From Leptolyngbya sp. Heron Island J (GTDB lineage Bacteria; Cyanobacteriota; Cyanobacteriia; Phormidesmidales; Phormidesmidaceae), in NCBI RefSeq assembly GCF_000482245.1, contig NZ_AWNH01000040.1:1-64000 (forward strand): a DNA stretch of 64,000 nucleotides, given 5' to 3'. The notes beneath the pieces are model-generated. The model was not told where the DNA came from and did no database searches. It saw only the letters and a program-made list of their open reading frames with translations. The stretch's first letter is position 1. Each line of letters begins with the position of its first letter. Positions 12,832 through 17,023 of the stretch are shown piece after piece. The position numbers and the translations under genes are program-made.

Positions 12832-12951
12832 CTGGGAGGAAAACAGACCACTCGAAAACCAATATTGTTGTAGTAGTTGTCGAGGTCGTTCCTGTTGCGA
12901 TTAGCAGAGCGGCAGTTGTCCGGATTGTTGTTCCAGGAACCGCCCCGCAGT
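12832..12951 (-). repeat. DGR template repeat (TR)
   Basis: On the minus strand this reads CTGCGGGGCGGTTCCTGG and onward. It aligns without gaps with the VR at 14565-14684. In the target reading frame it would encode an Asn-rich stretch (LRGGSW-NNNPDNCRSANRNRNDL then DNYYNN-IGFRVVCFPP), with AAC/AAT codons at the variable sites, as is classic for DGR templates. TR and VR differ at 15 positions, and all 15 are adenines in the TR sense strand. The TR lies 59 bases downstream of the RT stop, not upstream of RT as in the Bordetella phage element. Its reverse strand contains chance open frames that are not genes. Confidence 0.95.
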
Positions 12952-13010: not shown

Positions 13011-14078
13011 CTACAGGTCTAATTGTGCCGCAAAAGGTAGTGTGAGAAGTATTTGGTTTTGTAACTGCCAGGTATCACCATGGTTGAGATGAGCAAACCA
13101 GCTTTGCAATGATTGTTGAATCTGTTCCAGAGGCATGGTTTCACGTTGATAGGCGAGTTTTAGATCCTTTATTCGACGACGACCGCGCTTAAGATTGCTA
13201 GAACAGACTCGAATACGGTTAGGTAAGACTCTAAATCCAAGAAAGGTGGCACCTACTTTGGTTTCAAAGAGTTGACTTTTGATGGGATGAATTTTGAGTC
13301 GGAGGGTAGCGAGATAGGCTTCTATGTATTCTCTTGCGTCTTGTAAAAAAGCTTTGTCATCGCTGAATAGGGCAAAATCATCCACATAGCGAACATAGCG
13401 TTTAACGTGGAGGTTTTCTTTGATGAAATGGTCAAAGCCATTGAGGTAAACATTGGCAAAGAACTGACTGGTGAGGTTGCCAATAGGGAGACCTCGACGA
13501 CGCATAGCGGGGGTAATCAGAGTGTCACCAGAGAAATAATTAATTACGGTTTCTTGTTCGTTGCTGCCGTCGATAATCGCATCGACTAACCGGAGGGTAT
13601 CTTTGCACTTGATCTTGCGACGGATTAAGGTTTTGAGGATCTCAAGGTCAATTGATGGAAAGTATTTACGAATGTCGCACTGTAAAACGTAGCGACTGGA
13701 GCGAGAGAATTTAATAAATTTAGCCAGGGCACGATGGGTGCCAAAACCTACTCGATTGGCATAGGAGTCAGCAATAAAACTACGTTCAAATAGGGGACAA
13801 ATGACAGTACAAAGGGCATGGTGAACCACTCGATCTCGATAGGGTGCGGCGGAAATCATGCGTGGTTTTGGATCGATAATTTTAAACGTTTTATACGCTC
13901 CAGGCTGATAGGTTTTAGTTGCTAATTCTGCCTGTAATTGGATAAGGTTATGTTCTAGATTGAAGTTAAATTCCAGAACATTTTCTCGGAATCGCTTGTC
14001 TTTTTCTGCTTTTCAAGCTGATAGTAATAAGTTTTCAAACTCAATGATGTGGGGCCAGAGATTTCCGTGGCGCTTCAT
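13011..14078 (-). pseudogene. DGR reverse transcriptase, frame interrupted by TGA at codon 22
   Basis: The intact frame 13011-13859 (282 codons) contains the RT core: [27 protein letters not shown], the DGR-type motif [14 protein letters not shown], catalytic YVDD (residues 231-234 of the full frame) and ATFLGFRV. The frame clearly continues upstream with family-typical sequence ([34 protein letters not shown]). It reaches an ATG at 14078 that begins MKRHGNLWPHIIEFENLLLSA and is then cut by TGA at 14013-14015, where relatives often have Arg. The ATG overlaps the 3' end of avd by 38 bases, the usual DGR arrangement. Either the gene is inactivated, or TGA is recoded, or an internal start yields a shortened protein lacking the N-terminal region, or there is a sequencing error. 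Confidence 0.9.
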
Positions 14079-14418
14079 GGTGTTTTACCTTTTGTTGTTT
14101 GATCCAGCCACCCAGCTCATTGCCAATGGCATCAAGTCTTTGACAGATATATCCGTAGCGTTGGGCATCCATTTGTTGAAAGTCGAGAAGCAGCCGAGTT
14201 TGATAGCGTAATATATCTAACTGACTGTTAAGATTTTCCAGACGAGTGAGTTTTTGGCGTTCGTAGCGTGCTTTAATTAGGTGTTCTAGAAAATCGTATA
14301 GGCCAGACGTCATTCGGTCACCTAGTAGGAATTTATGATTCTTTGGTAGTCGGTTGAGTATAGGCACATACCACTTAATTAGGTCGTAGGTTTTCTGAAT
14401 AATTGGTAGTTCTTTCAT
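14041..14418 (-). CDS. avd: DGR accessory variability determinant (Avd)
   Basis: A 125-residue helical protein of the bAvd four-helix-bundle family. In DGRs Avd forms a basic pentamer that binds the RT and is needed for mutagenic retrohoming. The opening MKELPIIQKTYDLIKWYVP, then LPKNHKFLLGDRM and ALIKARYERQK-like LEHLIKARYERQK, are the family signature (S23-ribosomal/Avd-like). The C-terminus GGWIKQQKVKHHEAP is basic. It overlaps the RT start downstream and lies 140 bases from the target gene, with a terminator-like hairpin between. Confidence 0.93.
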   Translation of the reverse strand: MKELPIIQKTYDLIKWYVPILNRLPKNHKFLLGDRMTSGLYDFLEHLIKARYERQKLTRLENLNSQLDILRYQTRLLLDFQQMDAQRYGYICQRLDAIGNELGGWIKQQKVKHHEAPRKSLAPHH

Positions 14419-14557: not shown

Positions 14558-17023
14558 TTATGTCCTGGGAGGAAAACAGACCACCCGAAAACCAATATCG
14601 TAGTAGAAGAGGTCGAGGTCGAGCCTGTAGCGATTAGCAGAGCGGCAGCCGACCGGATTGAAGTACCAGGAACCGCCCCGCAGTATTTTTATTTTGCCAG
14701 AAGATATCCATGCGCTTCCATCTTTAGGGGCATCTTTATAGGTGTCGTGCCAGTCATCTAAGCACCATTCCCATACGTTGCCATGCATGTCGTAAAGGCC
14801 AAATGAGTTTGCGATCGCAAAACTCCCTACCTTAGTGGTCTCTTTGCGATACTGCCCTTTTGGCCCATTGCCGTAAGTAGAACTACCCCTATAATTAGCT
14901 AAATCTGTTGTAATCGTGGGACCAAAATGGAACGGCGTTTTAGTTCCGGCCCGACATGCATATTCCCATTGAGCCTCGCTGGGTAGTTTATACTCCTTCT
15001 TTGTCTTTTTCGACAATCGCTTACAAAACTCTTCAGCATCTTCCCAACTAATTTGTTCGACTGGTCGCTTGGTTCCTTTAAATCTGGCCGGATCTCCTTT
15101 CAAATCACGATTAATCTTGTCAAGCTTTGCCACTGCCTGCCACTGCTCTTGGGTAACCGCAAACTTCCCCATCCAAAACTCAGGCACCGTCACCTGATGC
15201 TGTGGATACTCATCCTTGCTAGCATCTTTTTCTCCCTCAGCAGCCCCCATCATAAACGTGTTACCTGGTATCCGCACCATCTCTAGCTTGATTCCATCAT
15301 CCAAATCTTCAGCAAAAAACTCTGCCTCTTTTTCCAGAGTTTCGATTACTTTACCGTTCTCATCCACCTGAATAGTTTCAAAGGAGAATTTGAGGTTTGG
15401 CTCATTTTGAGTTTGATATTCTTGAACAGATAAGTTGATCTGATTCTTAAGTTTCAGCCAAACATAATTCTGAAAGAGTTCAAGTTTGTTCCAAACCTGC
15501 CAAAAGCTTGAAAAGCTTTTATTTTGGAAAGAAAGAGTTGCCCCACCGACGATTGTAGGTGGTTCAAATCCCAAGATTTCCCGCTGATGGGGTAACTGTG
15601 ACCAATCGCCTTCATCGGCCATCCATAACACTCTTACCCAACGATAGGTTCCATGGTTATCACTGCATATATCAGTGTCTAATACCTCAACGATATGGGT
15701 AACCCGAGCACGCTGATGTAGGATAATTAACTCATGTGCCGATGGAGTTTGAGCACCTTTACTACTTGCAGGCCAGAATAATTCAAATACTCTAGAGTCT
15801 ACAGAGCCACCACTCTGTTTAATGCGCTGAAGTGTGTATGCCCACCCGTTTGGATCTTTGATATTTTTGAGGTAGAGAATTTTCGAAGTATCAGCAAGAG
15901 TCTTATAAGGTACTTCAGGTAGAGGATTTAAACTTTTTTCAAGCCTATGACCCAAAATCCCTACCTCTGCTGCCTGCACATCTTCATCTCGTAAATTTAG
16001 CAACCGCTTTAACTCTTCAAAATCTTCAATGATTTCACGGGAAAATGGGTAGGCTTCCTCTTTCTCAGCTTTCAATGCTTGAGTATAGGTTTCTAGATGA
16101 TTTGCCCTTTCTTTGTAGGGCTTGAGAACTTCATCTAAAATCTTTTCTGCATCTGTATTTGAGACTTTAAATTGTGTCTGTTTCTGCTTCAAAGTGGCTT
16201 TCGCCGCATAATTTAAACGACCATTTCTCTCGTTGACTTTACGCTGTACTTCTTTTCGATAACGTTGTGCATTATCTACCTGCACCTTAGCAATAATAAT
16301 TCCAGGTCCCTGTTCTTTATTAAACATGAGGGGTTCCATAGCAGGTGCCGCTGCTTTTACCTGGGTATACACATACTGATGTAAATCCCCAATGGCAATA
16401 AAGTTTTGTCCGTCCGGTGCTGCACCACCTGTTCTTAAGCCTTCTACTAAATAGCGGGTATACACCGACAAATCTTCACCTTCTTGTTCTAGGGCGTATT
16501 TCATTGATGTGGCAGCTGTCAGCACACACCAGCCCTTACCTCCCAAATAAGTTTCAACATCGACACTGCCATCATCCATAGCTAAAAAGCCATCAACAAA
16601 CGCTCCAGCAAAGCAACAATCTAAAATGATGACTTTACGCCTAGTAGGGGAACTCTCAATCACATCTTTCAGAAAATCAGCAGACACTGCTGTTCCCATA
16701 TTTGGACTACCGTTTCCAAAAAGCTGAGTTTGGGCAGTGGATAGATAAAATTTGCCAGACATCATATCCTTGATGCCGTGACCTGTGAAATAAAACAGCA
16801 CCATGTCATGTTGAGTGAGGTTTTGGGTAAACACTTCACTAATGCGAGACCGCATTGTGAATAAATCCGGATTAATCAGCGGCACCACCTGATCAAAACC
16901 ACCAATCTCAGGATTTTCCAGCAATTCTTGCATGGCACCCACACCATTAGCCGGACATCGCAACGGCTTTAGCCCATTGCCATACTCCCCAACACCAATC
17001 AGCAATGCAATCTTTCTAGCCAT
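14558..17023 (-). CDS. Caspase (C14)-FGE fusion, DGR variable target protein
   Basis: An 821-residue protein. Residues 1-250 form an orthocaspase domain: KIALLIGVGEYG, catalytic His82 in YFTGHG, and catalytic Cys137 in LDCCFAG. A helical middle follows (about 270-360, with ATLKQKQTQFKVSNTDAEKI and LLNLRDEDVQAAE), like repeats seen in other cyanobacterial signalling proteins. Next is an uncharacterised beta-rich segment (about 380-500), then an FGE/sulfatase-modifying-factor domain (about 580-821: PGNTFMMGAAEGE, SWEDAEEFCKRLS, SEAQWEYACRAGT, DMHGNVWEWC). The last about 40 residues are the DGR variable region. The EACC1-like gene lies just upstream. Predicted role: ligand sensing by the variable FGE fold triggers the caspase. 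There is no signal peptide, so it acts in the cytoplasm. Confidence 0.95.
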   Translation of the reverse strand: MARKIALLIGVGEYGNGLKPLRCPANGVGAMQELLENPEIGGFDQVVPLINPDLFTMRSRISEVFTQNLTQHDMVLFYFTGHGIKDMMSGKFYLSTAQTQLFGNGSPNMGTAVSADFLKDVIESSPTRRKVIILDCCFAGAFVDGFLAMDDGSVDVETYLGGKGWCVLTAATSMKYALEQEGEDLSVYTRYLVEGLRTGGAAPDGQNFIAIGDLHQYVYTQVKAAAPAMEPLMFNKEQGPGIIIAKVQVDNAQRYRKEVQRKVNERNGRLNYAAKATLKQKQTQFKVSNTDAEKILDEVLKPYKERANHLETYTQALKAEKEEAYPFSREIIEDFEELKRLLNLRDEDVQAAEVGILGHRLEKSLNPLPEVPYKTLADTSKILYLKNIKDPNGWAYTLQRIKQSGGSVDSRVFELFWPASSKGAQTPSAHELIILHQRARVTHIVEVLDTDICSDNHGTYRWVRVLWMADEGDWSQLPHQREILGFEPPTIVGGATLSFQNKSFSSFWQVWNKLELFQNYVWLKLKNQINLSVQEYQTQNEPNLKFSFETIQVDENGKVIETLEKEAEFFAEDLDDGIKLEMVRIPGNTFMMGAAEGEKDASKDEYPQHQVTVPEFWMGKFAVTQEQWQAVAKLDKINRDLKGDPARFKGTKRPVEQISWEDAEEFCKRLSKKTKKEYKLPSEAQWEYACRAGTKTPFHFGPTITTDLANYRGSSTYGNGPKGQYRKETTKVGSFAIANSFGLYDMHGNVWEWCLDDWHDTYKDAPKDGSAWISSGKIKILRGGSWYFNPVGCRSANRYRLDLDLFYYDIGFRVVCFPPRT
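14565..14684 (-). repeat. DGR variable repeat (VR) in the caspase-FGE gene
   Basis: This is the 3' end of the target gene and encodes LRGGSWYFNPVGCRSANRYR and onward through IGFRVVCFPP. It matches the TR at 12832-12951 at every position that is not adenine in the TR. The 15 changes give 10 amino-acid replacements (for example N to Y, F, G, L and D; D to V; Y to F) plus one silent CGA to CGG. The invariant flanks RGGSW, CRSANR and IGFRVVC are kept. The VR ends at the GC-containing CCTCCCAG, a few codons from the stop. Confidence 0.95.

Follow-up and report, generated by a model that had tools for sequence, protein, structure and literature searches.

The window analyzed here, i.e. the whole stretch of 64,000 nucleotides from Leptolyngbya sp. 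Heron Island J, contains on its minus strand a standard Avd-type cyanobacterial DGR with the order caspase-FGE target gene, avd, reverse transcriptase (RT) gene and TR. The target gene (14558..17023) encodes a variable protein of 821 amino acids (PF00656, PF03781, NF047832), which combines a caspase (C14) N-terminus with an FGE-sulfatase/C-type-lectin-like C-terminus. The FGE-sulfatase domain extends from residue 581 to residue 815 of the protein, and the VR of 120 bp (14565..14684), which is located at the 3' end of the gene, falls into its last codons. The accessory gene avd (14041..14418) is intact, as judged by 136 bits with NF033474 (cut-off 80) and 72.9 bits with PF22296, and adjoins the RT gene. 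The TR, also 120 bp long (12832..12951), is situated downstream of the RT gene, between this gene and the end of the cassette. VR and TR differ by 15 mismatches, all of which affect adenines of the TR. Fifteen of 30 adenines but none of 90 non-A positions were changed, which bounds the TR-VR divergence to approximately 3.3% (95%). Downstream of the VR, no hairpin exceeding chance expectation was found (z 0.24).

The RT frame and its relatives

On the same strand, the RT gene can be read from an ATG at position 14078 to a TAG at 13013-13011. This frame (13011..14078) comprises 355 codons plus the terminator and is interrupted solely by a TGA at codon 22 (14013..14015), which reads TCA on the plus strand. 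The single in-frame stop reported by the first-pass annotation was thus borne out. Since the five alternative frames across the same DNA carry between 14 and 34 stops, an RT frame with only one stop is not a product of chance. Its start codon lies inside avd, whose end is at 14041, resulting in an overlap of 38 bp. The SQ motif (residues 196-205) and the YVDD motif (residues 231-234) are intact and the invariant columns of the family have been kept. The protein therefore carries the GxxxSQ and YxDD motifs of the DGR clade, but the uninterrupted frame that characterizes an active DGR is broken at codon 22.

A tblastn search with the 355-residue RT detected about 80 relatives in public genomes, which share 61-70% identity over essentially the full length. 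The closest relative (G054) is 78% identical over 246 residues and starts at the same MKR. The family alignment covers the residues upstream of the TGA and shows that the RT truly starts upstream of the stop. The family-like N-terminus beginning inside avd, which had been proposed before, is confirmed by these relatives, as they align end to end. The 79 intact relatives have R (51), K (17), H (5), Q (4), E (1) or C (1) at column 22, i.e. Arg or Lys in 68 of 79 RTs, and a stop was found at this position in none of the relatives read there. Hence, the expectation of an Arg at this site was largely borne out, while its second part, a CGA codon converted by one C-to-T change, can be upheld with reservation. 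CGA occurs at the position in a number of relatives and belongs to the common Arg codons of the RT gene (9 of 30). For these reasons, an ancestral CGA is plausible and a C-to-T change would be the simplest origin of the TGA, yet the closest relative has CGC and the ancestral codon is unproven.

Compared to G054, the RT gene revealed a pN of 0.126 and a pS of 0.82 over 246 codons, indicating that it has been under purifying selection in the past. Three of 111 highly conserved RT columns deviate, the family median being one (rank 68 of 80), which is no clear sign of excess decay in the rest of the RT. The locus of G054 (L161:8247-9125) shares the order target, avd, RT and TR; its RT meets the TR directly after residue 246, as if the C-terminus had been deleted. 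A search of viral contigs for copies from the same population, using a DNA pattern around codon 22, gave no match, and no close RT copy with more than 72% identity was detected on plasmids or phages.

A trivial explanation for the TGA would be a base error in the assembly or a polymorphism within the culture, the RT gene being really intact. In modern assemblies, substitution errors are rarer than indels, and the sequence around the TGA is not a homopolymer run. Moreover, independent disruptions of other kinds (deletions, an insertion and frameshifts) exist in related genomes. On the other hand, the TGA is the sole defect of an otherwise intact cassette, and Schillinger et al. raised the same caveat for their own cases (PMC3521204). 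Taken together, we regard an error or a polymorphism as unlikely. Phase variation, which had also been considered, is unsupported since the change is a point nonsense codon and no slippage run was seen at the site.

Possible sources of a functional RT

An AlphaFold2 model of the RT, in which the TGA was treated as Arg for folding only, reached a pLDDT of 78. Its best match was the Bordetella DGR RT 8ub7 (TMq 0.79, 32% identity). In the model, codon 22 falls in a helix formed by residues 14-25. The next ATG, GTG or TTG after the TGA is 52 codons distant and corresponds to Met74 (13859), from which the longest remaining ORF of 282 amino acids (13011..13859, minus strand) can be read. Since the SQ and YVDD motifs are retained in this ORF, which also still produces an RVT_1 hit, an internal restart at Met74, or at a rare codon, might give rise to an active shortened RT. 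However, a protein starting at Met74 would be deprived of four helices (residues 8-12, 14-25, 32-39 and 41-53) and of the first finger strand (residues 63-67), and 18 positions conserved to at least 95% in the family are located within the missing residues 1-73. A corresponding N-terminal region is also present in the Bordetella enzyme, as profile positions 2-168 were aligned to residues 3-171 of 8ub7. The 282-residue product is probably not a functional RT, and a productive restart is highly improbable.

The second possibility is low-level read-through of the UGA by a near-cognate tRNA, for instance Trp-CCA, yielding little but sufficient RT for a slowly working DGR. Near-cognate tRNAs are able to misread UGA in bacteria, and in E. 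coli a U at position +4 favors termination (PMC5289835). The UGA of the RT gene is followed by A. The conserved RT sequence after the stop, the clean VR and an extra Trp-CCA-like gene in a tRNA array on contig C115 are also compatible with read-through. By contrast, the absence of a stop at codon 22 in the relatives is at variance with it, and so is the use of TGA as terminator by six of the 40 largest ORFs in the window. Of 54 tRNA hits, none would decode a stop codon, and tRNA-Sec gave only sub-threshold hits, which overlap ordinary tRNA hits; the scan scored 150 of 360 first-look candidates. In addition, RTs broken beyond read-through by frameshifts or an insertion are accompanied by equally clean VRs (see below). 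Read-through, as envisaged by the first-pass annotation, thus gained no positive support and is quite unlikely. Genome-wide reassignment of TGA is not indicated either, because this codon ends ordinary ORFs in the window. The tRNA array itself (L125:962-3310; contig C115:39962-42310) contains at least 14 genes according to ARAGORN. By eye, further unannotated tRNA-like segments resembling Cys-GCA, Trp-CCA and Pro-TGG were recognized between these genes, none of them with a stop-reading anticodon.

Finally, the RT might be supplied in trans by another DGR of the cell. The draft genome (8.06 Mb, 119 contigs) is estimated to be 99.3% complete. Neither a protein search nor an RVT_1 search of this draft revealed a second DGR RT besides the one DGR-type frame, and avd is likewise present only once. 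Apart from the DGR RT, the RVT_1 search identified 12 full-length ORFs of 488-588 amino acids and one fragment. The 12 full-length RTs look like the group II intron type; two of them were read and possess group II-intron-like C-terminal CPVCG...LHHI zinc/HNH motifs. Their genes are scattered over contigs C5, C31, C59, C79, C107, C108 and others, and the identical scores of several of them suggest that group II intron copies recently spread in the genome.

A remote VR was detected on contig C115 (74533-74652) in a second caspase-FGE gene (L126:2606-4660). Its existence would agree with an RT acting in trans, as would the occurrence of two DGR RTs in another genome of the genus (G003). However, when compared with the TR of the window, the remote VR is changed at 15 A and 8 non-A positions and, because of the latter, looks much older and was apparently last refreshed long ago. 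With one DGR RT frame and one avd found in the draft genome and the other full-length RTs looking like the group II intron type, the earlier idea of a rescue in trans has no support and is extremely improbable.

VRs beside disrupted RTs

A set of 111 distinct loci, drawn from public genomes as well as the strain's own family and phylum, was scored for RT integrity and for the TR/VR pair. The RT was disrupted at 24 of the 111 loci, although fewer of them may be truly broken since some of these loci belong to MAGs or low-coverage contigs. Besides frameshifts or split matches, nonsense codons (e.g. L047 at codon 10, L058 at codon 245, and L210), internal deletions, an insertion (G048) and truncations, including that of G054, were observed. 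The RT of Calothrix sp. PCC 7103 (L047:4782-5837) has its TAA at codon 10 and is thus a second case of an early nonsense codon; the two VRs of this locus show no non-A mismatch to the TR. Within the genus, the RTs of L163 (G007) and L164 (G001) lack internal segments of about 83 and 120 codons.

If a VR lost its clean appearance beside a broken RT, intact and broken loci should differ. Such a difference was not detected. Zero non-A mismatches were counted at 29 of 69 intact and 6 of 13 broken scorable loci (Fisher p=1.0), and the mean non-A divergence was 0.0131 and 0.0125, respectively. A Mann-Whitney test likewise gave no difference in cleanliness (p=0.88). The only deviation was that TR and VR were undetectable more often at broken (11/24) than at intact loci (18/87, p=0.019). 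As the VRs of both groups are equally clean, the adenine-only signature outlasts inactivation and is no evidence of hidden activity. The apparent paradox of a dead RT beside a fresh-looking VR, implied when the locus was first described, thereby disappears, all the more as this state was already reported in 2012 (PMC3521204). One could also imagine that single early nonsense codons combined with clean VRs (codon 22 here, codon 10 in Calothrix PCC 7103) represent a tolerated state of low activity, in which diversification is throttled by read-through or frequent reversion, but this is very unlikely. For annotators, the survey calls for caution: about one fifth of the sampled loci of this RT clade are disrupted, and adenine-only VRs fail to separate them from the others. 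The more useful by-product of the analysis is that, in this clade, a clean VR by itself does not show that the element works.

Probable inactivation of the DGR and comparison with known systems

From the sequence data we infer that the DGR was most likely inactivated recently by one nonsense mutation in the RT gene. This conclusion is based on one stop in 355 codons with intact motifs and on the sense codon, mostly for Arg or Lys, in the relatives, but also on past purifying selection, the adenine-only VR, the intact avd and the lack of a backup RT or avd. The frequency of RT disruptions among related loci (24/111, including G001 and G007) and the cases described previously (PMC3521204) point in the same direction. 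The suggestion that the element is newly dead is thus supported by a lone nonsense codon in an intact cassette and a genome with no second DGR RT. According to this scenario, a single nonsense change, in the simplest case from CGA to TGA, would have hit codon 22 of the RT gene, so that translation of the RT message would end after 21 residues. No usual start occurs before Met74, and a product begun there, deprived of its N-terminal helices and first finger strand, would not be expected to act as a functional RT. The last diversified VR would consequently be frozen in the target gene, with avd, TR and VR still undecayed. It should be noted that the absence of other decay would be equally expected if some functional RT were still made. 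Moreover, the event is only loosely dated, because the bound of about 3.3% on TR-VR divergence is loose. The silencing may have been neutral, or it may have favored a good VR variant. The locus captures, in good preservation, a DGR shortly after its apparent death in a genome lacking a backup RT, and it therefore lends itself to a clean test of how long the VR signature persists in an inactive element.

With the Bordetella BPP-1 DGR RT (PDB 8ub7), the RT described here shares the fold and the SQ/YxDD architecture. What separates the two is the premature stop and the nature of the element, which is cellular and cyanobacterial here, whereas BPP-1 is a phage. Closer parallels are the DGRs with inactivated RT and clean VR/TR presented by Schillinger et al. 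in 2012 (Fig. 4), namely a nonsense mutation in Ruminococcus gnavus, an insertion in Acaryochloris marina and a frameshift in Bacteroides sp. (PMC3521204). The combination of a broken RT with A mismatches only, by which a recently inactivated DGR was recognized there, was also found in the window, and in all cases a single event broke the RT while the rest of the cassette is present. This state is therefore already known, and it is common among the relatives; what differs is the organism and the position, as the stop found here falls in codon 22 and the cyanobacterial DGR is of the caspase-FGE type. Cyanobacterial DGRs that have C-type-lectin/FGE targets as well as remote variable proteins were described in 2020 by Vallota-Eastman et al., who proposed that cyanobacteria may drop their diversifying components when selection has yielded a good variant (PMC7517822). 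The DGR studied here has in common with those elements an N-terminal effector-like domain, a C-terminal lectin-like VR and a remote paralog with TR homology. Unlike them, it still harbors the RT pseudogene in its place, next to an avd, a TR and a VR that are all intact. The present case fits both the state described by Schillinger et al. and the loss after selection suggested by Vallota-Eastman et al.
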